Assembly: GCA_955652915.1 (NCBI GenBank)
Contig: CATPCJ010000051.1
Span: forward strand, 1-39,645
Origin: an uncultured Bryobacteraceae bacterium
Lineage (GTDB): Bacteria > Acidobacteriota > Terriglobia > Bryobacterales > Bryobacteraceae
DNA length: 39,645 nucleotides
Direction: 5' to 3'
In this document: positions 15,270 to 35,337 of the stretch, in pieces
Numbering within the stretch: position 1 is the stretch's first letter
How the letters are laid out: each line of letters opens with the position of its first letter
Notes under the pieces: model-generated
What the model was told of the DNA's origin: nothing
Seen by the model: only the letters and a program-made list of their open reading frames with translations
Database searches by the model: none
Position numbers and translations under genes: made by a program

Positions 15270-15327
15270 TTATTGTAACACAAAAACTACTTGACATACC
15301 TTAGTTATTGTATTACACTTATTGTAT
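15270..15327. promoter_or_regulatory. Divergent element promoter with three TTATTGTA boxes
   Basis: The gap between passenger gene and transposase contains TTATTGTA three times, at 15270-15277, 15305-15312 and 15319-15326. On the plus strand TTGACA (15291-15296), a 17-bp spacer and TACACT (15314-15319) would place the transcript start at or next to ATG 15326, a leaderless message. On the minus strand TGTTACAAT, an extended -10, overlaps the first box. The boxes cover both promoters, as operator sites would. The ribbon-helix-helix protein encoded at the element's right end is a candidate ligand; that link is inference. Confidence 0.55.
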
Positions 15328-16162
15328 GGCGAACGTACTCAGCACCGACAAGCAGACCGTGATCATCGGGTCGCTGTGTGAAGGTTCCAGCATCCGCTCT
15401 ATCGAGCGAATCACAGGCGTTCACCGAGATACGATCATGCGGCTGGGCGTGCGGGTAGGCCAGGGATGCACAGCACTCCTGGACGCCAAGATGCGTAACC
15501 TGGATTGTCACCGTCTAGAAATGGACGAAATATGGGGATTTGTGGGGAAGAAAGAACGCCACATGCGGCCCGGTGACGATCCGACGTTCGGAAATGTTTG
15601 GACGTTTTGCGCCATTGATGCCGATACGAAGCTGGTACCGGCCTTTCGGGTTAGCGGTGATCGTGACGTGAAAACCGCAACGGCGTTTGTACTCGACGTG
15701 GCTGATCGTATGAAGAATCGGCTGCAAATCTCTACCGATGGTCTGAGCGCTTACGTGGAAGCTATTGACTGGGCTTTTGGTGGCAATGTGGACTACGGCC
15801 AAATCATCAAAACCTACGGAACCGAGGAATCCGTAGAGGCGCAGCGCCGGTACAGTGCGCCCAAGATCAGTTCTATCGAGAAGAAAGCCATATACGGGCG
15901 TCCCGACTTCGATCTGATCTCCACGAGCTACGTAGAGCGGTTGAATGGCACCACGCGGCTGCACATGAAACGGCTTGCGCGTCTAACGTATGCGTTCAGC
16001 AAAAAGCGCGAGAACTTTGAAGCAGCGGTTGGGCTGCATTTCGCGTACTACAACCTCGTGAAGCGTCACAGCACGCTGCGCTGCACTCCGGCTATGGCCG
16101 CTGGTGTTGAGAAGTCCTTTTGGACGGTAGATGAATTGGTAGGGGCAGCGATGGCAGCATGA
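15326..16162 (+). CDS. IS1-like DDE transposase
   Basis: A 278-aa transposase in a single frame, unlike classical IS1, which needs a frameshift between insA and insB. Residues 8-45 form a helix-turn-helix (IRSIERITGVHRDTIMRLG) like the InsA DNA-binding part, without an obvious zinc finger. The catalytic triad is Asp67 (EMDEIWGFV), Asp138 (ISTDGLSAYV) and Glu204 (SYVERLNGTTR). The C-terminal NFEAAVGLHFAYYNLVKRH is the family's closing helix. It cuts and joins the element ends. ATG 15326 has no ribosome binding site, but the predicted promoter places the transcript start there; an in-frame TTG at 15308 is less likely. The stop overlaps the next gene as ATGA. Confidence 0.92.
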   Translation: MANVLSTDKQTVIIGSLCEGSSIRSIERITGVHRDTIMRLGVRVGQGCTALLDAKMRNLDCHRLEMDEIWGFVGKKERHMRPGDDPTFGNVWTFCAIDADTKLVPAFRVSGDRDVKTATAFVLDVADRMKNRLQISTDGLSAYVEAIDWAFGGNVDYGQIIKTYGTEESVEAQRRYSAPKISSIEKKAIYGRPDFDLISTSYVERLNGTTRLHMKRLARLTYAFSKKRENFEAAVGLHFAYYNLVKRHSTLRCTPAMAAGVEKSFWTVDELVGAAMAA

Positions 16163-20744: not shown

Positions 20745-20805
20745 CATCTTGTTTGGAACGCCATAAACCATTTGAGTGGTTATCCGGGCGCTCCAGGGGA
20801 GGCGT

Positions 20806-23800
20806 ATGAAAACCAGAAGGACCCATCGGATGTATATTCTGGCGGCTGCTTTATTGGCGGCGCTGACGATTCTCTCGGTCGGCGCTTTCGCCCAATCAAC
20901 GAGCGGCGACTTGGTTGGCACGGTAGTGGACGCGACGGGCGGAGCGGTCTCCGGCGCAACCATCACCGCGGAGAATCAAGCCACCGGCATCAAGGCAACG
21001 GCAACCACCAACGGGAGTGGGCAGTATCGTATCAGCAACTTGCCTGTAGGACAATATGCGGTGTCCGTTGTAAAAACAGGATTCACATCCGCCACGCTCA
21101 AAGATGTAGCGGTTGAACTGAGCAAGATCTCAACCGCGAATGTCACGGTTCAAGTGGGACAGGTTTCCGCTTCCGTAGACGTACAAGAATCCGTCGTGAG
21201 CATGGACACTACCACCGCACAGGTGCAGAACACGTTTCAAACGAAGGCGGCTGCGGATCTGCCAACGGCCAGCGTCGGCCTTGGAGTTCTGAATCTGTCT
21301 CTGCTGGGCTCCGGTGTGTCCAGCAGCGGGGGTATCGGCGCCGGCACGGGGCCCGCTGTTGGCGGTCAGCGCCCGCGCAACAACAATTTCACGATTGAGG
21401 GAATCGACAATAACAACAAGTCGGTGACCGGTCCGCTGGTCTTCATTCCGAATGACGCCGTTGCCGAGTTCTCTCTGCTGCAGAACCAATTTGCCGCCGA
21501 ATACGGCCACTCCTCCGGCGGCCAATTCAATACCATCGTGAAGAGCGGCACCAACCAATTGCACGGCTCCATTTACGACTACTTGCTGAACCGGAATCTC
21601 AACGCCATCGATCAGTCGCTGCAAAATCAAGGCTTCACAAAGAATCCGCGTTTCGACCAGAATCGGCTGGGGGCAACCATCGGTGGTCCGATTAAGAAGA
21701 ACAAGTGGTTCTACTTCGGCAACTTCGAGTACACTCCCCTGGGGCAAGCCAGTTCGCAGTCGGCTCAAGTCGAGTCTCCCACGTCGGCGGGTTATGCCGC
21801 CTTGGCCGGGCTCCCCGGTTTGTCGGCGGCCAACTTCGGGATTCTCAAACAGTATGTGCCCGCGTCGCCGGCTTCGAACGGCGACGTCCTGTTGCAGGGC
21901 GACGGTAAGACGCCGGTTCGGGTGGGCGGGCAGACAATTCCGTTGGGCGTGCTGCCGTTGGCTTCGCCTAACTTCACCAACTCGTATGCCGCAATCATCT
22001 CTTCCGACTACAGCTTCTCGGAAAATGACCAGTTGCGCGGCCGCTACATCTATAACAAGGTGAGCGCAATCGACGCCAATGCGGAGCTTCCTCAATTCTT
22101 TCTGTCCGCGCCGACCACCTACTACCTGGCAACCCTGACTGAATATCACAATTTCAGCCCGAATCTGACCAACGAGTTCCGCCTGGGCTATAACCGCTAT
22201 AACAACACCACCCCGTCCGGAGACTTCAAGTTTCCAGGCCTCGATCAATTCCCCAATATCGTGTTGAACGACCTGAACCTGAATATCGGGGCCGACGGCA
22301 ATGCCCCTCAGTTCACCATCCAGAACACCTACCAGATCACCGATAACGTGAGCTGGGTCAAGGGCCGTCATAGCTTCAAGTTTGGCTTCGACGGAAGGAA
22401 AGCCATCAGCCCCGGAACGTTCACGCAACGCGCGCGCGGCGAATACAACTACAACAGCACCCTCCTGTACCTCCAGGATTTCACGCCCGACAACCTCTCC
22501 GAACGGAGCGTCGGAAACGTGATTTACTATGGCGACCAGGTTGCGTTATATCCGTACTTCAACGATAACTGGCGTATCAAGCCGAACCTTACCCTGAACT
22601 TGGGTTTACGCTACGAATTCACCAGCGTGCCCTACTCACAACGGCTGCAGCGCCTGAATCACATCTCCGACACGCCGGGTGTGCTGGTCTTCAATGAGCC
22701 TCAACCGCAGTACCATAACTTCGCGCCGCGCATTGGCATCGCCTATACGCCCGGCAAGAACGGCAACACCTCCATTCGGGCCGGTTTCGGCATCTCTTAC
22801 GATGTCCTGTACGACAACATCGGAATTCTTTCGCTGCCGCCTCAGCTCAGCACCACGGTGGATACCGATCCGCTGGGTTCTCCCACCGGTAGCGGACCCA
22901 ATTTCCTGAAGAATGGCGGTATCCCGCCGAATGCAAGCGTCGGCCAATTATCCCGCGCCGATGCCATTGCCTCCACTTCCAACTACGTCCCGAATCAGCA
23001 ACTCCCGTACTCCATCCAGTGGAACTTCGGCGTCCAGCACGTGTTCAAGAAAGACTATACGTTTGAGGCCCGCTACCTGGGCACGCGCGGCGTTCACCTG
23101 AACGTGCAGGAGCGTGTCAACAAGCAGCCGAAGGTGACGTCAAGCGTCTTCCTGCCCACCTACCTGCAGGCCCCCAGTCAGGCCACGTTGGATGGGCTCA
23201 CCACGACGCTGGCGCAAATCCAGGCCAGGTCGAATACGGTCCCTCAGTTCCTCGCGGCCGGCTTCACCAATCCGATCGTGGAATTCTCGCCAATCGGGAA
23301 TTCGACGTACAACGGGCTCGCCTTGCAGTTGAACAGACGCTTCTCCAACGGGTTCAGCATGATCGGAGCTTATACCTGGAGCCATCTAATCGATGACAGC
23401 ACGGCGGACTTCTTTACCACGCGCGTCTTACTCCGCGGCGCGCTGAGGATTTCACGAACCTGAAGAGGGATCGATCTACCTCGGCTTTGGACCGCCGGCA
23501 TAGATTCACCCTTACCGCCATCTACGATCTGCCGTTCTTCAAGCATTCCAACTGGCTGGCCAAGAATGTTCTTGGCAACTGGGAGATCGCGCCGATCTAC
23601 ACCTTCGAGAGTCCCGAATACGCCACCCCGCAGAGCTCAGTCGATGCCAATCAGAACGGCGATTCGGCCGGCGATCGCACCATTATCAACACCGCCGGAG
23701 TCGATGGAACCAGCAGCAACGTTACCGCGCTGAAAAATAGCGCGGGGGCCACGGTTGCCTACCTTGCCACCAATCCCAACGCCCGATACATCAAAGCTCA

Positions 23801-24110
23801 ACTGGGTGCGCTCACAAACGGAGGCAGAAACACCCTCGCTACCCGGCGGATCAATAACGTCGATCTCACGGTGGTGAAGCGGTTCAATGTGACGGAGCGG
23901 GTGCGTTTTGAATTGTTCGGACAGTTCCTGAACGCTTTCAACCATCCGCAATTCACCCCTGGTTTATTGAATCAGGTTAATTCGATTGCCACCACCGGGT
24001 CCGGCGTGCTCAATTTCGTCACTGCGGGAAACAAGGCGTTCAACAATCCGGAAGTCACTTTCAACAGCAACGCGCGCGTGATCCAGATTGCCGCCAAGTT
24101 CGTCTTCTAG
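20806..24110 (+). pseudogene. Oar-like TonB-dependent receptor, frameshifted
   Basis: The first frame runs from ATG 20806 (GGGGAGG just upstream) to TGA 23463. It has a signal peptide (MYILAAALLAALTIL to GAFAQ), a carboxypeptidase-regulatory domain (GDLVGTVVDATGGAVSGATI), a plug (NQFAAEYGHSSGGQFNTIV) and most of the barrel. After residue Val at 23425-23427 the conserved text continues one frame away (TPRRAEDFTNLKRDRS, from 23430) and reads on through DRRHRFTLTAIYDLPFF to the terminal AAKFVF at 24110. A one-base loss at 23428-23429 explains this. No slippery heptamer is present, so programmed frameshifting is unlikely. It is either a recent pseudogene or a sequencing error; the rest of the gene shows no decay. 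Unbroken length would be about 1,100 aa. Confidence 0.85.
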
Positions 24111-27750: not shown

Positions 27751-29166
27751 CTACGACGCGGGCCGCGGCGCCTCCAATCCCATGCGCTCCAGCAAGACCC
27801 CTGCCCTGTTGACATTGGCCAAGGCAAACCAAGCGGGATTGACGCACAGGTCGGTCACGTTGTCGTTGGATACGGTGGCGCCATCGGGCAGACTCAAGCG
27901 AACTCGCGCGCCCAGGACCACGTCGTAAAGGTCGACACGATTTTCGAGAATCCCAACCAGGTCGTTGACATGAATGCGCATTCCCGGCGCTGAAACTTTC
28001 GCGCCGGGAGGCATTCGGTCCAACCGCGCTCCTGGGGGTGTCCAGGAGAGGACGTATTGTCGAGGCCGATCCAGACCGTCGACGATGAGATGCCACGCCG
28101 CGGCTCCGGAGGCGGCGGCAATTCGGTTCCCTTGCTCGAAAAACGGCCGATTCGCCTGCTCCACAAAGCCGCGAATGCACTCGTCGATTTCACCGGTAAG
28201 CGCGTCCAGACGGCTCTCGCTTGCCGCGACAGGCCCGCCCAGCAGCGGACGGATCGAGGAGTCCAACTGCGCCAACGGTTGGAAGCGAAGCCGGTCGCCC
28301 GGCCGACTGACGCCGTCAAGGCACGACGCCGCGTGTTCTTCAATCCGGGGAACGCCGCCGCGCAATTCGAGCCGCAAACCAGGATAGGAGAGATGTCCGA
28401 GAACGTCCGGCAGACGTTCCCGCACGGCTTCGATCAGCACTCCGTCATCGTCAAGGAAGTGCAGGCTATTCATGCTCTCCACGTCAGCCGGATAGCACAA
28501 CCCGTTTGCGAACGGAATTACCACTTTCGGCCGAATCTTGATCGCCGCCTCCACCAGAGTGTTACGCCACGCCGCCGCGACCGAGCGCAGAGCGGCGACA
28601 GTAGCTCCCGGCATCAAATCCCCAAGGAGCGGGATGTACTCGTTGAACGTGCCGCTTTGGTATGGAATCAAGACCGCGTCAATCTGCCTTTGCACACATC
28701 TCAACACGTCGTCGACGAACGGCGCGAAGTGGCTGTCCACCTGGTTCCAGACCACGCCGTCATCGTCGATCAACACAAAGCCGAGCTCGGGAACGTCGAT
28801 GCTGGATGGGGTGGCCACGATGGTCAGGCCGCCGGTCTGTACTATCTCAAAGGGTTTGAGCCGGCGCGTCTCCGTGTAGCCGAGCGCGCGCAAGCCGCTC
28901 TCCAACGCAGGATCGTCCGGCAGCAATACGCTCGGGTTGCCGAGGCCGCGCAACGTCCGCAGGCTCTCGGCATCGAAGTGATCGTTGTGCCGGTGCGAAA
29001 TAATCAGGCGGTCAATCGGGGGCAACCGCGCGGGATCGATATGGCGAGACGGGTATATTTCATTTGCTCCGTGGCCCAGCGTCGATCCCAATAGGGGATC
29101 GAACAGTAAAGCGCCCCACTCACCTTCCGCGAGCAGGCTGGCATGGCCTAGAAAACTCACGCGCAT
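27751..29166 (-). CDS. Metallo-beta-lactamase-fold protein with a C-terminal extension
   Basis: A 471-aa protein. The N-terminal half is an MBL-fold hydrolase of the UlaG/CMAH-like type: MRVSFLGHASLL, then ISHRHNDHFD supplying His58, His60, Asp62 and His63, and VWNQVDSHFAP as a probable later metal-ligand strand. Such proteins bind two metals and hydrolyse lactones, phosphodiesters or amides, and some relatives are oxygenases. Residues from about 300 onward form an additional domain (LNRRxGD-like elements are absent; MRIHVNDLVGILENRVDLYDVVLGARV is partly conserved-looking) that I cannot assign. The start overlaps the radical SAM stop by 10 bp, so it is the third gene of that operon. The gene's product could act on what the radical SAM pair makes; that is inference. 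Confidence 0.85.
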   Translation of the reverse strand: MRVSFLGHASLLAEGEWGALLFDPLLGSTLGHGANEIYPSRHIDPARLPPIDRLIISHRHNDHFDAESLRTLRGLGNPSVLLPDDPALESGLRALGYTETRRLKPFEIVQTGGLTIVATPSSIDVPELGFVLIDDDGVVWNQVDSHFAPFVDDVLRCVQRQIDAVLIPYQSGTFNEYIPLLGDLMPGATVAALRSVAAAWRNTLVEAAIKIRPKVVIPFANGLCYPADVESMNSLHFLDDDGVLIEAVRERLPDVLGHLSYPGLRLELRGGVPRIEEHAASCLDGVSRPGDRLRFQPLAQLDSSIRPLLGGPVAASESRLDALTGEIDECIRGFVEQANRPFFEQGNRIAAASGAAAWHLIVDGLDRPRQYVLSWTPPGARLDRMPPGAKVSAPGMRIHVNDLVGILENRVDLYDVVLGARVRLSLPDGATVSNDNVTDLCVNPAWFALANVNRAGVLLERMGLEAPRPAS

Positions 29167-30203
29167 GGAGCATTCGGGACCTGCCTGAATGGGTCGTCGC
29201 CGGCGGGATTTCTCAAAGCCCGCGCCTCAGCCTCGAGCGCCGGGAGCATTGCCAGATAGCCGTCGATAATTCCATAGTCGTTCGTCATATTGAATTCGTG
29301 CATGAGGGTCATATAGATATCCGGCCTGGCGCACGTCTGCACCATGTCGCCGTGGGGAACCGCCCTGGTTTCCGAATGGGGACACACCCAAACGCGAACG
29401 TCGAGCCCGCGAAATGACCGCAGGGTTTCCAGGAAATCGCGTTCCCGGACCACATGATATTTTCCCTGCTGAAACTGCTTGTACAACGGCGTTTCCGGCG
29501 CCACGTAGGTGGGCGCCACATGGACTTCCATCTCCACTCCGGTTTCCGCCTGCAGACGCGCGAGGTACGCCACGGTGTCGAAGGCTTCCTGGCGCCACTC
29601 GTCGACCGCAGCCTCCCATGGCTTGATAAGACACAGTGGCTTCAACGCCCGGTGCCTGCGGCTGACCGTCGTCACCATTTGTTCGAAGACCTCATCTGGG
29701 AGAAACTTGTGCAGAAGATCGTTTCGCACCCGGGAGGACCTGGTCTCGTAGCCGACAGCCGGGATAACGTTCAGGTTCGCAGACTCGGCCCGGTCGCAGA
29801 TTTCGTCATAGCGATCGCCGGTCAGCAGCTCGGCGCGAGTTTCGAAGTTCAGCCACTTGATATCGGTGTGCTCCCCGATGTGGTCGATAGCCAGCATTAG
29901 CGATTCCGGATCGACAGAATTCGTGTCGAGCAGGGACCCTGCCAGAGAAAGATTGATTCGAAAGATGTTTCTACTCTTGAAGCGCTTGCAGTAATCTATC
30001 GCGAAACGTATCTGAGGCAGGATGTCGTTGGATAGTTCATCGGCTTCCCGTTTACCGCTGTTTGGAATATGAATGGCGCAAAAGGTACAACGATACGGGC
30101 ACGTCGGCGTAGCCAACTCCACGATGAATTCGTCGCCCCAGGGATAACAGAAATCAAAACCCATGTAGAATGGTTCTCGGCTTACGCGCCGCTCGCTGTT
30201 CAT
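29157..30203 (-). CDS. Radical SAM protein (Elp3/RaSEA-like branch), function unknown
   Basis: A 348-aa enzyme. TCPYRCTFC (Cys35, Cys39, Cys42) is the CxxxCxxC motif for the 4Fe-4S cluster that cleaves S-adenosylmethionine. The SAM barrel continues through NIFRINLSLAGSLL, KWLNFETRAELL and VIPAVGYETRSSRVRNDLL, the last resembling the ETxxxxxR pattern of Elp3/MiaB-like radical SAM proteins. There is no TRAM, B12 or SPASM domain, and further cysteines are too scattered to name an auxiliary cluster. It overlaps the upstream paralogue as ATGA and the downstream MBL gene by 10 bp. The C-terminal YMTLMHEFNMTNDYG recurs in the upstream protein. The substrate is unknown. Confidence 0.88.
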   Translation of the reverse strand: MNSERRVSREPFYMGFDFCYPWGDEFIVELATPTCPYRCTFCAIHIPNSGKREADELSNDILPQIRFAIDYCKRFKSRNIFRINLSLAGSLLDTNSVDPESLMLAIDHIGEHTDIKWLNFETRAELLTGDRYDEICDRAESANLNVIPAVGYETRSSRVRNDLLHKFLPDEVFEQMVTTVSRRHRALKPLCLIKPWEAAVDEWRQEAFDTVAYLARLQAETGVEMEVHVAPTYVAPETPLYKQFQQGKYHVVRERDFLETLRSFRGLDVRVWVCPHSETRAVPHGDMVQTCARPDIYMTLMHEFNMTNDYGIIDGYLAMLPALEAEARALRNPAGDDPFRQVPNAPCA

Positions 30204-31069
30204 GAATCGGCCTCCTCCATGGCGGCCACGATCTGCAATAGGTTCCGCAGCGCCCCGTAATCCTGCGTACGATTGAACTCAACAAGCGTGTCGTAACAGA
30301 TCTCATTGATGAGCGACGTCTTGCGCCGGCGCGGTCCCGCGGGCGCGAGCGGGTCCACCTCAGCCAACACCTGAATCATGGCGGGAATACCCATTAAGGA
30401 CAGTATCGATCGCGCCATGAGGACCCACAGATCGTCGCGCATCGGAGGAATGCGGGGACACATTTGTAACTCGAGATCGACCTTCAGGCATCTGCTCATT
30501 TCCGCGATTGTTAAACCGGCGCCGCGGAAAAAATCGTCCAATTGAAAACTCTCTAACCAGCGGCCGGGTGTTTCGACGCGGCAGGCCACGCGCCCGATTT
30601 CCGCGCCGGCGTCCAGGCAACGATGGACGATCTCCCGCCAATCCGCATGCAGCGGGTCGATCGAGAATCCGGGACGAAAGATCAAGCGCTCGGAGGCGCA
30701 GGCGGTATGACACTCCATCGCGGCGGAGCCGAACTCGCTATTGCGGCTGCCCTCGATCGACCAAACCACCTGCAAACATCGGACGCCCGAGGTAGAAACG
30801 GCCCGCGGCAGGCGCTTCATAAATTCGTGAAGTTCATTGGCCGTCATCTTGTCGGCGGCCAAGTCCAAGAACGTCAAGCGGAAAATTCCACGCCGCGACA
30901 ACAACGCGGAGTAGCGCGATGCGAATTCCACCTGTTTTAGGAAAGAGTCCTGAATCGATGGAAGTTCTTGATGATATCCATCCGAGAGAACGACCTGGAG
31001 CTCATTCCCTTTCGGATGCTGATTGATCACCGCTAAACGCGCCGGAATAGCAGAACGATCTATCTCCAT
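30200..31069 (-). CDS. Cysteine-less radical-SAM-like paralogue, putative partner subunit
   Basis: A 289-aa protein that aligns by eye with the radical SAM enzyme encoded next to it. QVEFASRYSALLSRRGIFRL parallels QIRFAIDYCKRFKSRNIFRI, and YDTLVEFNRTQDYG parallels YMTLMHEFNMTNDYG. In between, HRCLDAGAEIG and VETPGR parallel DRAESANLNVI and YETRSSR. The segment that should hold CxxxCxxC is shortened and contains no cysteine (ELQVVLSDGYHQ), so it cannot bind the SAM cluster. A stray CHTAC occurs later, outside the cluster site. The tight ATGA overlap suggests a heterodimer in which this subunit is structural or regulatory. It is the first gene of the operon; ATG 31069 is preferred to TTG 31081, and no ribosome site is visible. 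Confidence 0.75.
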   Translation of the reverse strand: MEIDRSAIPARLAVINQHPKGNELQVVLSDGYHQELPSIQDSFLKQVEFASRYSALLSRRGIFRLTFLDLAADKMTANELHEFMKRLPRAVSTSGVRCLQVVWSIEGSRNSEFGSAAMECHTACASERLIFRPGFSIDPLHADWREIVHRCLDAGAEIGRVACRVETPGRWLESFQLDDFFRGAGLTIAEMSRCLKVDLELQMCPRIPPMRDDLWVLMARSILSLMGIPAMIQVLAEVDPLAPAGPRRRKTSLINEICYDTLVEFNRTQDYGALRNLLQIVAAMEEADS

Positions 31070-31089
31070 GGCGGTGGACAATATCGACT

Positions 31090-31118
31090 AAAATAGTACG
31101 CAATAGGGTGCATGTCAA
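31090..31118 (-). promoter_or_regulatory. Sigma-70-like promoter of the radical SAM operon
   Basis: On the minus strand TTGACA (31118-31113) and TATTTT (31095-31090) are separated by exactly 17 bp. Transcription would begin near 31083, about 14 nt before ATG 31069. Confidence 0.65.
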
Positions 31119-31167
31119 GCGTGGGAGAGCCTGGAGCGGCCCGTATTATGGTGCGGGAGTGAGAAGT

Positions 31168-31998
31168 GTGACGCAGGAATCCCATGCAAGCCGGAGACTC
31201 GCCGCGGTTGTGGAGTTCGGTGAAGCGAATGCTTGGGCCGACCTGTTCCGGGCGTTGCCGGCGGACCTGGCGAAAGCATGGAACGCGCGCGTGGACATCA
31301 TCGGCTCCGCGATAGCGCTAGTGTCGCGAGAGGATCATCGAACCACGTACCGGCGCGTGATCGGCCTCGGCCTGCGGGAGCCGGCCGGCCGGGACGCCGT
31401 GAAACGGCTGGTCCAACTGTACCGCGACGCCGGCATCTCCGACTTCGCGGTTCAACTGAGTCCTGCCGCACAACCAACCGGGTTGCACCAGTGGCTCTCC
31501 GACGAGGGACTCCGCGTTGCCGGTGGAGAGGTCAAGTTCATACGATCGGCGGAATCGGCGCCCGCGACGAATACGCTTCTCCGCATCGAGCAGGCGACCG
31601 GCGCCGAAGCTTCCGAATTCGCCCGGATCGCCGGCGACGTACTAGGGCTGTCGGCGCTCCTTCGCACCGGCCATGCGGCCGTGGTCGGCCGCAATCGATG
31701 GCGGCATTATATCGCCTATGCAGGAGAAAAACCGGTCGGGACGGGAGCCTTGTACGTGGAGGATCGTGTGGCCTGGCTCGGGATCGACACCACCCTGCCC
31801 GCGTATCGTGGCCGCGGCGCACAGAGCGCGCTCCTCGCCCGGCGGATTGAGGATGCGCGTGCGCTGGGTTGCGATCGGCTCACTATTGAGACCGCCGAGG
31901 AGACGCCAAGTTGCCCCAATCCCTCCTATCGCAATATCTTGAGGGCGGGTTTTCGGCGCGTCTATTTCCGGCCGATTTACGTTATTCAACCGCGGTGA
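31168..31998 (+). CDS. GNAT-family N-acetyltransferase
   Basis: A 276-aa protein. The C-terminal half carries the GNAT core: VGTGALYVEDRVAWLGIDTT, then LPAYRGRGAQSALLARRI with the R/QxxGxG/A-type acetyl-CoA pyrophosphate loop. YRNILRAGFRRVYFRPIY is the closing strand. The N-terminal half (about residues 1-130) may be a second, degenerate GNAT-like fold. The acceptor is unknown. GTG 31168 is chosen because GGGAG lies 8 bp upstream; the in-frame GTG at 31108 would place the start within the divergent promoter. The gene faces away from the radical SAM operon and converges with the SHMT-like operon. Elp3 enzymes join radical SAM and GNAT domains, so proximity here is notable, but a functional link is only inference. 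Confidence 0.8.
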   Translation: MTQESHASRRLAAVVEFGEANAWADLFRALPADLAKAWNARVDIIGSAIALVSREDHRTTYRRVIGLGLREPAGRDAVKRLVQLYRDAGISDFAVQLSPAAQPTGLHQWLSDEGLRVAGGEVKFIRSAESAPATNTLLRIEQATGAEASEFARIAGDVLGLSALLRTGHAAVVGRNRWRHYIAYAGEKPVGTGALYVEDRVAWLGIDTTLPAYRGRGAQSALLARRIEDARALGCDRLTIETAEETPSCPNPSYRNILRAGFRRVYFRPIYVIQPR

Positions 31999-32070: not shown

Positions 32071-33417
32071 TTAGCGATAAAGAAAATCGACGAGTGGCTG
32101 AAGGTTGCCCTCGTCAGCGCAGAAAGGTGCGCACAAACGCCTCAGGCTCTCACAAAACACGGAAGGACCGTAGCAGTAAGCAGGACGGCATCGCGCCCGG
32201 CGCTCGGCAACCGCCCTGCCCAGTTCCGCCGCATCGCGTCCCTCGATCAAAAGTTCGCGGAAGCATTGTGCAAAGAACCTCATGTCGTCTTTCTTGAGGC
32301 CAAGCCGGGTCGCTTCATTCACGCCCATGCGTATTCCGGGTCCCGCCAGACTCGGCAGCGGGTTATATGGATTAACCACGAAACCCACATCAAACAATGA
32401 CGTCGCGCAAACATACGCGTCGCCGAACGGCGATGGATCCACCCAGACCTGGTGATTGCCGGTAAAGCCCTTGTCTTTGGCCTGCACCGCAAATCCAAGG
32501 CTGTGCAACGCTTCAGCAAACGCGCGAGCGTTGCTCAGCGTCTGAGTCGCGTACGCGGCGCCGCCTTCCTCGACGAATTCCAGCAGTGTAATCGCCAAGG
32601 CAATCACTTCGCTTAGATGATGATGGCTAATCATATTGACCGCCGTCATTGTGATTCTGTCAAAAATCTCGGCATCGTTCGTGAAGAGAACTGCCTTGTG
32701 GGGACCGGGGAAAGTCTTGTGAGTGGAGCCGCCGTACGAATCCGCGCCGCAATCCAGGGGGTTTGGATAACATCCACCCCAGATAAGCCCATTTACATGG
32801 CTGGAGTCGACGTGAATGTGGACTTTCCCGGGGGAGGCTTGACGAACAGTTTCGATCATCGCCTTTAAGTCGATCGGAAAAAGGCTCGTGGCATGATCCA
32901 CGTAAATCAGCTTCGGCTGCTCGCGGCGCACCATGGCAGCCAACCTGTCCAGGTCGATAGCGGACCAATCGGCGCCGGGCAGGAACGTCACCTTCATGCC
33001 CAACTTGCCCGCGACGTACTGAGTATCCGGATGTCCACCCATTTCAACGGGCATGCTAAAAACCGTGGCCCCTGCCCCTCCGCCTAGCGCGGCGAGCGCC
33101 AGCGTCATGCCGGTCAAGCCGGAAACCGCGCGGACATCTACGTATTCGGCTTTTGATATCTTTCGAAGAAGAGGAAAGAGCATCTCCTTCTGAATCTCGC
33201 CGGCCAGGCTGCCACCCTGAAAACTCCACCGCCCGAACACCTCTTTCTCATCGAAAAAGTAGCGGCTGTACGCGTCCGACAAGAAGGCCAGCCGTGCCAC
33301 GGGAGATAGCAGATTCTCGCTCGGGATCAGGCTGAACGAATTTTTCAGCTTGCGATCGTGCCGGCTAAGCATTTGGATCAGCGTGCCGATCTGAGAGCTC
33401 TCAGACATGGGAGTCAA
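32071..33417 (-). CDS. Serine hydroxymethyltransferase-like PLP enzyme with cysteine-rich tail
   Basis: A 448-aa fold-type-I PLP enzyme. SLIPSENLLSP, EMGGHPDTQ, VDSSHVNGLIWGG (Asp204, His207) and GGSTHKTFPGPH (Lys234, Schiff-base lysine) follow the SHMT order. Several SHMT positions differ (THKTLRGP becomes THKTFPGP, GGHLTHG becomes GGHPDTQ), so it is probably not the housekeeping GlyA. SHMT-like proteins in secondary metabolism act as transaldolases or alpha-hydroxymethyltransferases. The last 45 residues contain five cysteines (C-x5-C-x6-C-x6-C-x3-C), not part of SHMT. The ATG forms an ATGA overlap with the creatininase-like gene, the third and last position of this operon. Confidence 0.87.
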   Translation of the reverse strand: MTPMSESSQIGTLIQMLSRHDRKLKNSFSLIPSENLLSPVARLAFLSDAYSRYFFDEKEVFGRWSFQGGSLAGEIQKEMLFPLLRKISKAEYVDVRAVSGLTGMTLALAALGGGAGATVFSMPVEMGGHPDTQYVAGKLGMKVTFLPGADWSAIDLDRLAAMVRREQPKLIYVDHATSLFPIDLKAMIETVRQASPGKVHIHVDSSHVNGLIWGGCYPNPLDCGADSYGGSTHKTFPGPHKAVLFTNDAEIFDRITMTAVNMISHHHLSEVIALAITLLEFVEEGGAAYATQTLSNARAFAEALHSLGFAVQAKDKGFTGNHQVWVDPSPFGDAYVCATSLFDVGFVVNPYNPLPSLAGPGIRMGVNEATRLGLKKDDMRFFAQCFRELLIEGRDAAELGRAVAERRARCRPAYCYGPSVFCESLRRLCAPFCADEGNLQPLVDFLYR

Positions 33418-34160
33418 GAGCTCGCCGGCTGTGGCGGCAATCCGGCCAGGAACTCTGCTAGCGCATCAACGCACATTTGCAGGAGCGCGGACGGAACCTC
33501 GGAGTCGGGTGGTTTATATTGGCCGCGGACGACCCCGTCGCCCAAGTACGTTCTGGCCGTTCTAGGATTGAGCGGGAACATGGGAAAATCCGGCGTTTCC
33601 GGCCATGGCTTCGCGCCTTCGGGAATCTCGGCGACACGCGAAAAAGGAAATACTTCATACCAGGACGCGTGTTCTCCGCGGGCGACATCGAGTTTTGCCT
33701 CTATCGCGTGCACGGCCTCGGCCATCCCGGCCCAGGCACTTTTATAATAGATATTCAATCCTGTTCTATCGAGCTGCACTTCGGAAAGAACGCCGGTCAC
33801 AACCTCGTTTCCCCCATGCCCGGTGACAACCACGATCCGCCGGAATCCCTGCCGATACAGACAATCGACCATATCTTCCAGCACCGCGCAGAGAGTTGCC
33901 GTACGCAGCGAGATGGTGCCTGGGTAATTGATGGAGAATGCAGAACAGCCGAATGGCAGCGTGGGCGCGATCAGCACATTTGCCCGGCTGCACGCCTGGC
34001 GTGAAACTTCGTTGACAAAAAGCGTATCTGTCAGCAGGCTCAGGTATCCGTGCTCCTCCGTTGCGCCCAGCGGAATAACTACTCGAGTATCGAGCTGAAG
34101 GTAGCGTTCTACGTCCATCCAATTGAGACCGGCAAAGTCTACAGTCTGCATCAAGCTCAT
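33414..34160 (-). CDS. Creatininase-family amidohydrolase
   Basis: A 248-aa metal-dependent hydrolase. LGATEEHGYLSLLTDT carries the creatininase E-x-HG...D ligands (Glu35, His37, Asp45), and VVTGHGGNE is the HGGN signature (His114). RGEHASWYEVF corresponds to the family's HAGxxET segment, with Glu as a likely ligand. Members cleave creatinine or formamides, or act as peptidases such as MftE of mycofactocin. No precursor peptide was found here, so a RiPP role is not supported. It lies 22 bp after the oxidoreductase gene and overlaps the SHMT-like gene by 4 bp. ATG 34151 is an alternative start. Confidence 0.88.
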   Translation of the reverse strand: MSLMQTVDFAGLNWMDVERYLQLDTRVVIPLGATEEHGYLSLLTDTLFVNEVSRQACSRANVLIAPTLPFGCSAFSINYPGTISLRTATLCAVLEDMVDCLYRQGFRRIVVVTGHGGNEVVTGVLSEVQLDRTGLNIYYKSAWAGMAEAVHAIEAKLDVARGEHASWYEVFPFSRVAEIPEGAKPWPETPDFPMFPLNPRTARTYLGDGVVRGQYKPPDSEVPSALLQMCVDALAEFLAGLPPQPASS

Positions 34161-34182: not shown

Positions 34183-35277
34183 TCAGTCCGAAAATTCAAT
34201 TGGCTGGCGGCCGGCACGCTGGCAGGCTTCGAAAAAGCGCACAATGTGCCAGGCGTCGTCCAGCCCTCCGATCCGGATTGGTTCGACATTCAAAATGCAC
34301 TGGCAAAAGTACAGAATTTCCTGCGCGTAGCCTTGCGAGAAAAGGTGCATGTTGTACGGCTGTCCGGAATAGCAATCCATCTCCCAATGGAGCGGCGCAT
34401 CGGCGTCCGAACTTGTGAAATCGCCGATCCGGCCGTACTCGTACCTGCCCAGACCACGATGCCCCGGGCGGTAGTAGGTCAGCCGGATATTGTTCTCGAC
34501 TATAACGTTCGCGCCTTGACCGACGATCTCCAGACGCTCCATCGGGCTGGTGCCCGACATGCCCCATGGCATATGTAGAACACCGGCCGCGCCACTCGAA
34601 AACTTCATCGCGAAAATTGGCTCGCCGTCCGGCCCCTCTTCCAGATACATCCGCCGTAATGGCCCCATGAGTGAGTGAATTACCGACATGGGATGCACAA
34701 TGTGGTCCAGGAAATAATGCATGTGCTCCGGGTCTCCGCGGAGATGAGCGGGAGGAAGCTTTTCGGGATCTCTCAGGTACAGTGTGGTCGGTTTGCCGAA
34801 TTCGGGCTGCTTGAGGATCGCACGAACTTTGGCCGTCGCTGGAGAAAACATCTTCATAAAACCAACGCCGACCTGCCGGCCGCATTCGCGGCTGATATTT
34901 CGGAGTTCCTCGATAGCGCTAACCGAATCGGCGGGAGGCTTCTCGATCCAAGCATGACACCCGGCACGCATCGCGTCGGCAGCCTGGGCCGGATACAAAG
35001 GCCGCCAGGACTCATCGTATCCAGTCGCGAAGAATACCGCGTCCAACTGCTCATGCTCGAGCATTAGCCGATAATCATGGTAGACGCGGCCGGCGCCGAA
35101 CTGCTTGGCGTAGGCATGGGCTCGATCGACGCAGACATCGGCCAGGGCGACCAACTCCACTGGAGCAAAATGAAAAGCGGGAAGAATGTTGCGGAATGCC
35201 TGACCGCCGCAACCGACTAATCCGGCCCTGATCTTCGTTGAAAACTCGTGGTTAAAAGTCAGCCGCTCTGAAAACAT
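34183..35277 (-). CDS. Gfo/Idh/MocA-family oxidoreductase
   Basis: A 364-aa NAD(P)-dependent oxidoreductase. The Rossmann fold starts RAGLVGCGGQAFRNILPAF, ADVCVDRAHAYA follows, and WIEKPPADS is the EKP motif with the catalytic lysine. HYFLDHIVHPMSVIHSLMG carries the DHxxHxxD-like segment, with His rather than Asp at the last position in my reading. Family members oxidise or reduce sugars, inositols or biliverdin-like substrates; the substrate is unknown. It is the first gene of the Gfo/Idh-creatininase-SHMT operon. ATG 35277 gives a normal N-terminus; GTG 35313 would add 12 residues. Neither start has a strong ribosome site. Confidence 0.9.
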   Translation of the reverse strand: MFSERLTFNHEFSTKIRAGLVGCGGQAFRNILPAFHFAPVELVALADVCVDRAHAYAKQFGAGRVYHDYRLMLEHEQLDAVFFATGYDESWRPLYPAQAADAMRAGCHAWIEKPPADSVSAIEELRNISRECGRQVGVGFMKMFSPATAKVRAILKQPEFGKPTTLYLRDPEKLPPAHLRGDPEHMHYFLDHIVHPMSVIHSLMGPLRRMYLEEGPDGEPIFAMKFSSGAAGVLHMPWGMSGTSPMERLEIVGQGANVIVENNIRLTYYRPGHRGLGRYEYGRIGDFTSSDADAPLHWEMDCYSGQPYNMHLFSQGYAQEILYFCQCILNVEPIRIGGLDDAWHIVRFFEACQRAGRQPIEFSD

Positions 35278-35337
35278 ACAGTTGCCCGCATTCGGACACA
35301 GGCTACCCCTCACGTTGCCGTTTGTTCACTGGCCGCC

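Follow-up and report, generated by a model that had tools for sequence, protein, structure and literature searches.

A radical SAM enzyme and an overlapping gene for its cysteine-less sequence relative in an uncultured Bryobacteraceae bacterium: a candidate heteromer

The stretch of DNA analysed here, a window of 39,645 nucleotides from an uncultured Bryobacteraceae bacterium, carries two overlapping genes which encode a radical SAM enzyme of 348 aa and a 289-aa sequence relative of this enzyme that lacks the cluster-binding cysteine motif. Most likely, with a probability of roughly 0.6, the two products form one heteromer in which a live catalytic enzyme is joined to a dead, cysteine-less barrel. 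The first-pass annotation had described an active radical SAM enzyme coupled to a cysteine-less paralogue; the coupling of a live enzyme to such a relative stands, while the further step that both chains make up a single enzyme is one that we infer from the sequences. Dead paralogues that activate or shape live enzymes are known in several enzyme classes, and in the literature found they are hardly documented for radical SAM enzymes, searches for inactive or pseudo-enzyme partners having returned nothing direct. The overlapping pair would offer a simple system for the capacities of a radical SAM barrel without its cofactor.

The gene for the 289-aa radical SAM-like protein, the proposed non-catalytic subunit, occupies positions 30200..31069 on the minus strand (an alternative TTG start at 31081 would yield 293 aa instead of 289), and it is followed on the same strand by the gene for the RaSEA-like radical SAM enzyme (29157..30203), in which a CX3CX2C motif is formed by C35, C39 and C42. 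Both genes share an ATGA stop/start overlap at 30200..30203 on the minus strand, the ATG of the radical SAM gene lying at 30203-30201 and the TGA stop of the 289-aa gene at 30202-30200, and a Shine-Dalgarno-like run, GGAGGAGG, is located directly 5' of this ATG, an arrangement through which translation of the two genes would be coupled. The lengths, coordinates and 4-bp overlap reported in the first-pass annotation were correct on re-reading. A 471-aa MBL-fold protein (27751..29166, minus strand; PF13483 at 31.6 bits, above the cut-off) is encoded by a gene that shares 10 bp with the radical SAM gene and is likely to belong to the same transcript. In the order of transcription of the minus strand, the pair is preceded by genes for a Gfo/Idh/MocA oxidoreductase (34183..35313; PF01408, 46 bits), a creatininase-family amidohydrolase (33414..34160; PF02633, 137 bits) and an SHMT-like PLP enzyme (32071..33417; PF00464, 59.7 bits), the latter two overlapping by 4 bp; a divergent GNAT gene on the plus strand (31108-31998) then intervenes, and the 289-aa, 348-aa and MBL-fold genes complete the series. 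The GC content of the pair (0.57) and its GC3 (0.69, and 0.69 in each gene) are unremarkable compared to the rest of the window. An anti-phage system was ruled out, a PADLOC match being absent.

Elsewhere in the window, an open reading frame at 15308-16162 resembles by eye an IS1-type transposase and is flanked by exopolysaccharide-like and large TonB-receptor-like genes. A large Oar/TonB-receptor-like protein is encoded at 20776-23463 and its apparent C-terminal part lies in another frame at 23487-24110; this split of the receptor over 20776-24110 suggests a frameshift or a sequencing error. Similar large receptors are found on either side of the operon.

Relatedness of the 289-aa and 348-aa proteins is well supported at the level of sequence comparison. 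Their whole-length global alignment reached a Z of 9.0, with a score that 0/1000 shuffles attained, and when the pair was compared with 163 other proteins its global Z was 9.4 versus a maximum of 4.1, the latter belonging to a radical SAM relative. Among 1310 open reading frames, the best non-self match of the 289-aa protein was its 348-aa neighbour. BLASTP between the two proteins recovered the C-terminal block only (E = 0.001), which is ungapped and reads EFNRTQDYG in one and EFNMTNDYG in the other. An ungapped N-terminal block (LKQVEFASRYSALLSRRGIFR / LPQIRFAIDYCKRFKSRNIFR) has a local score that, after removal of the C-terminal block, was reached by 2/1000 shuffles. The shared N- and C-terminal blocks pointed out earlier are therefore real, as demonstrated by BLASTP, hhalign and shuffle tests. 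The pairwise HMM comparison that had also been proposed bore out the C-terminal block, for which hhalign gave a probability of 79% between the 289-aa protein and the family profile, compared to 2.4% for a control protein.

Once the C-terminal block is removed, the global score is no longer significant (70/1000 shuffles; rank 8/164), so that relatedness rests on two colinear blocks and not on the mid-barrel. Ungapped similar stretches are colinear on diagonals +2, +18, +26 and +39, only +18 and +39 being strong individually, and homology probably extends over the full length of both proteins, mid-barrel included. It could be argued from the same loss of significance, and from fold matches that are to barrels in general, that the two proteins have no more in common than a docking segment at the C-terminus (EFNxTxDYG plus helix), the N-terminal block being a chance resemblance and the body of the 289-aa protein an unrelated beta/alpha protein. 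Such a scenario is rather unlikely, because so few shuffles attain the local score of the N-terminal block, which is moreover colinear with the C-terminal one, and because the flank from the N-terminal block to beta-1 is ungapped save for the cysteine loop. In a tree the 289-aa protein was not placeable (branch length 5-7), and a lineage-specific duplication is thus unsupported by the tree.

As claimed in the first reading of this DNA, the 289-aa protein is without CxxxCxxC, and its neighbour has C35-PYR-C39-TF-C42. In the ungapped reading, beta-1 (ELQVVLS / EFIVELA) falls on diagonal +2 and the 38 residues after it on diagonal +18, with a score of 45 versus a shuffled mean of -35 (0/20,000 shuffles). 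The step from +2 to +18 amounts to 16 residues missing from the 289-aa protein at TPTCPYRCTFCAIHIP, the CX3CX2C loop, a placement that is the reading of one alignment, given that MAFFT puts the gap elsewhere. A frameshift concealing the cysteine loop was ruled out, as the gap is internal to the open frame. Across 37 family-conserved columns derived from 24 members, 26 are retained in the 348-aa protein as against 12 in the 289-aa protein, which is gapped at 9 of them, these counts depending on an alignment that is weak for the mid-part of the 289-aa protein. Its losses, likewise alignment-dependent, include all three cysteines, the GS after beta-2 and the ETR.E and KP motifs.

Several scattered cysteines are present in the 289-aa protein (e.g. 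ECHTAC), and these could be taken to indicate a stand-alone enzyme or binding protein which descends from a radical SAM barrel and carries out its own step of the pathway, especially as ATGA overlaps are common among enzymes of the same pathway, such as the creatininase-family and SHMT-like enzymes of this window. This explanation is unlikely, since neither a recognised active-site motif nor a family was found for the protein, zero matches being obtained in Pfam, NCBIfam and PADLOC searches, and since its best-kept part, the FNxTxD-type segment, is a C-terminal helical motif and not a pocket motif. The preferred reading remains that of a dead barrel working alongside the live enzyme.

Structure prediction, which had been suggested as a check, returned a beta/alpha barrel for the 289-aa protein at low to moderate confidence; its matches were barrels in general and did not single out radical SAM enzymes. 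The single-sequence AF2 model (pLDDT 54.7, pTM 0.36) shows alternating strands and helices, and the model based on a family alignment of 22 radical SAM sequences (pLDDT 68.9, pTM 0.65) consists of alternating beta/alpha units, the latter representing consistency and not proof because its alignment presupposes homology. Both models matched beta/alpha barrels of many kinds, with a best Z of ~8. PFL activating enzyme (3c8f, 8fo0), a radical SAM protein, was matched with a Z of 7.0 over 187-190 residues at an rmsd of 4.3-4.4, ranking among the other barrels and not above them, and radical SAM families were not prominent in these fold searches. In the preferred reading, the two proteins would share a common barrel throughout.

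As judged from profile searches, the 348-aa protein belongs to the RaSEA/queuine-lyase-like radical SAM enzymes, among which it is divergent. It matched the NCBIfam model for RaSEA (TIGR01210) with 43.3 bits (E 2.7e-11, model positions 24-252 of 313), a score far below the equivalog cut-off of 212 bits, and PF04055 with 14.9 bits, below the gathering score of 29.5. Against a profile built from 21 bacterial, RaSEA-like relatives, and thus without its own sequence, the window enzyme scored 116 bits. These relatives come from a scan of 84,980 genomes with the pattern H..PT[FY]....TPL...h..G, designed on the window enzyme together with a single relative, so that relatives without this motif escape detection. 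The scan yielded 27 loci, 22 of which encode relatives (identity about 24-30%) in Spirochaetes, delta-proteobacteria, Omnitrophota, Polyangiaceae, Verrucomicrobiae and other groups; the remaining five (L031, L032, L033, L043 and L053) showed zero match and were not counted as relatives. Sampling the phylum to which a Myxococcales MAG belongs added three further relatives (L061-L063), bringing the total to 25. Two weak matches were set aside, namely a helicase-like protein (L003) and a radical SAM protein that is larger and of a different type (L005), and L006, L007, L060 and L064, with similarly weak scores, were left out of the relatives.

Where the site is covered, the relatives found with the pattern show a CRWxxCxxC-type, CX4CX2C motif (one with CQW, one with CRY), and the CX3CX2C of the window enzyme differs from this CRWxxCxGCNLP-type arrangement. 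The FNxTxD-type C-terminal segment is general in the relatives, including the RaSEA-type L062 (FNRTAD) and L063 (YNRTLD). When the profile of the relatives was compared with the PDB, the sole match below 0.01 was queuine lyase 6p78 (23.2 bits, E 2.6e-4).

Some observations were made in the surroundings of these relatives. In an Acidobacteria MAG, the RaSEA-like protein is part of a 938-aa open frame (L041 2325-5138, equivalent to L008 7826-10639 on the same contig) whose C-terminal part resembles by eye an FGGY-type sugar kinase. Neighbours shared across phyla, in clusters of 3-7 loci, occur at L030, L038, L044, L048, L008, L029, L047 and L051, those of L008 resembling an ABC transporter (binding protein, permease and ATPase) and a ~600-aa AAA-type ATPase, and this shared-neighbour set around RaSEA-like genes constitutes a recurring, unnamed system. 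In L062 (445-2714), the RaSEA-type gene overlaps a NodU/CmcH-type carbamoyltransferase-like gene by 4 bp.

The genomes searched with the 348-aa protein were 200 relatives, all 257 of the order, and samplings of its own phylum and of the phyla to which a Streptomyces, a Myxococcales MAG and an Anabaenopsis genome belong; in these ~1,470 genomes a second copy of the pair was not found. None of the other 256 genomes of the order carries the radical SAM gene, G045 being a false match only, and the pair therefore looks horizontally acquired or lineage-specific. The co-occurrence survey that had been called for was carried out on the stretches around the live subunit's 25 relatives (mostly up to 8 kb, with four at 3.4-7.1 kb, L061-L063 at ~2.8-3.8 kb and L008 at 19.5 kb), and among their open reading frames of at least 60 aa a cysteine-less second copy was detected beside none of them. 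The 289-aa protein itself, searched in 200 related and 11 diverse genomes, gave chance-level matches only in the 11; homologues of either protein were absent from plasmid and viral-contig collections, and the phage collection searched with the 289-aa protein contained no homologue of it. In none of these searches did relatives of the 289-aa protein emerge apart from the 348-aa protein next to it and the family's C-terminal segment, and homologues occurring alone, which had been named as evidence against the pairing, were not seen. The proposal of a new two-subunit family is not established, as the genomes searched hold a single example of the pair.

Occurrence in a single genome, together with the very long branch and the lost loops, might also be expected of a decaying, functionless duplicate. 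It is very unlikely that the 289-aa gene is such a remnant, considering that its frame is open over the full length, that GC3 is the same in both genes and composition is neighbour-like, and that the stop/start overlap is intact and the 348-aa gene is provided with a good ribosome site.

In the heteromer favoured here, the 289-aa protein would be a dead barrel of paralogue type in which the cluster loop and the majority of the SAM-site residues are gone and the C-terminal helical FNxTxDYG segment is retained. Both proteins would be made together from their overlapping genes and assemble into a physical complex, in which the dead subunit may stabilise the live 348-aa subunit or shape substrate binding. 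The enzyme would act in a small-molecule pathway with the MBL-fold protein and perhaps also with the SHMT-like, creatininase-like and Gfo/Idh proteins, membership of the SHMT-like enzyme being uncertain because of the intervening divergent GNAT gene. This enzyme is closest in NCBIfam to fluorothreonine transaldolase (TIGR04506, 186 bits, below the cut-off) and matched threonine aldolase 7k34 in the PDB at 2.2e-36, and its resemblance to L-threonine transaldolases suggests a beta-hydroxy amino acid as an intermediate. The best plasmid relative of the MBL-fold protein (32% over 72%), annotated as a hypothetical protein, is from Pseudanabaena and lies in a RiPP region, with a LanM gene and a Nif11 precursor close by. 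RaSEA and queuine lyase break C-N bonds in modified 7-deazaguanines, and by analogy it may be speculated that the live enzyme cleaves a C-N bond next to an abstracted hydrogen. A more specific proposal, which we regard as tentative and somewhat short of even odds, is that a duplicated barrel without cluster or SAM site serves as the obligate substrate-binding or activating subunit of a RaSEA/queuine-lyase-type enzyme, in an undescribed small-molecule pathway that would also involve an SHMT-type transaldolase and an MBL-fold protein. In this regard, the pair flags an unexplored biosynthetic operon in an acidobacterium.

Several known systems resemble the pair in part. In peptide systems of Bacteroidales, members of the pseudo_rSAM_GG family (TIGR04150) form pairs with live radical SAM enzymes. 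As this named NCBIfam family comprises radical SAM-like proteins without cluster cysteines, the idea of a dead radical SAM protein has a precedent. On the other hand, the 289-aa protein is unmatched by TIGR04150 (cut-off 250 bits), and a precursor peptide was not recognised at the window locus. Dph1 and Dph2 are paralogues, although both Dph subunits bind Fe-S clusters, in contrast to the 289-aa protein with its missing cluster motif, and Dph chemistry is non-canonical. Dph1-Dph2 is presented as a radical SAM enzyme of two subunits (PMC11048331). Queuine lyase (6p78) has a CIWGKCSFC motif, with the CX4CX2C spacing seen in the 348-aa protein's bacterial relatives, whereas the window enzyme has CX3CX2C; the profile match is weak and partial, and queuine genes were not identified near the pair. 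The likeness to RaSEA lies in the TIGR01210 match of the 348-aa protein and in the FN.T C-terminal segment common to RaSEA-type relatives. The partner in the window is, however, a cysteine-less relative and not ArcS, and archaeosine genes, ArcS included, are absent among the identified neighbours (MBL, SHMT-like, creatininase, Gfo/Idh and GNAT). RaSEA is bound to ArcS in a complex and free ArcS is inactive (PMC11298593), so that dependence on a partner has a precedent in the RaSEA group.
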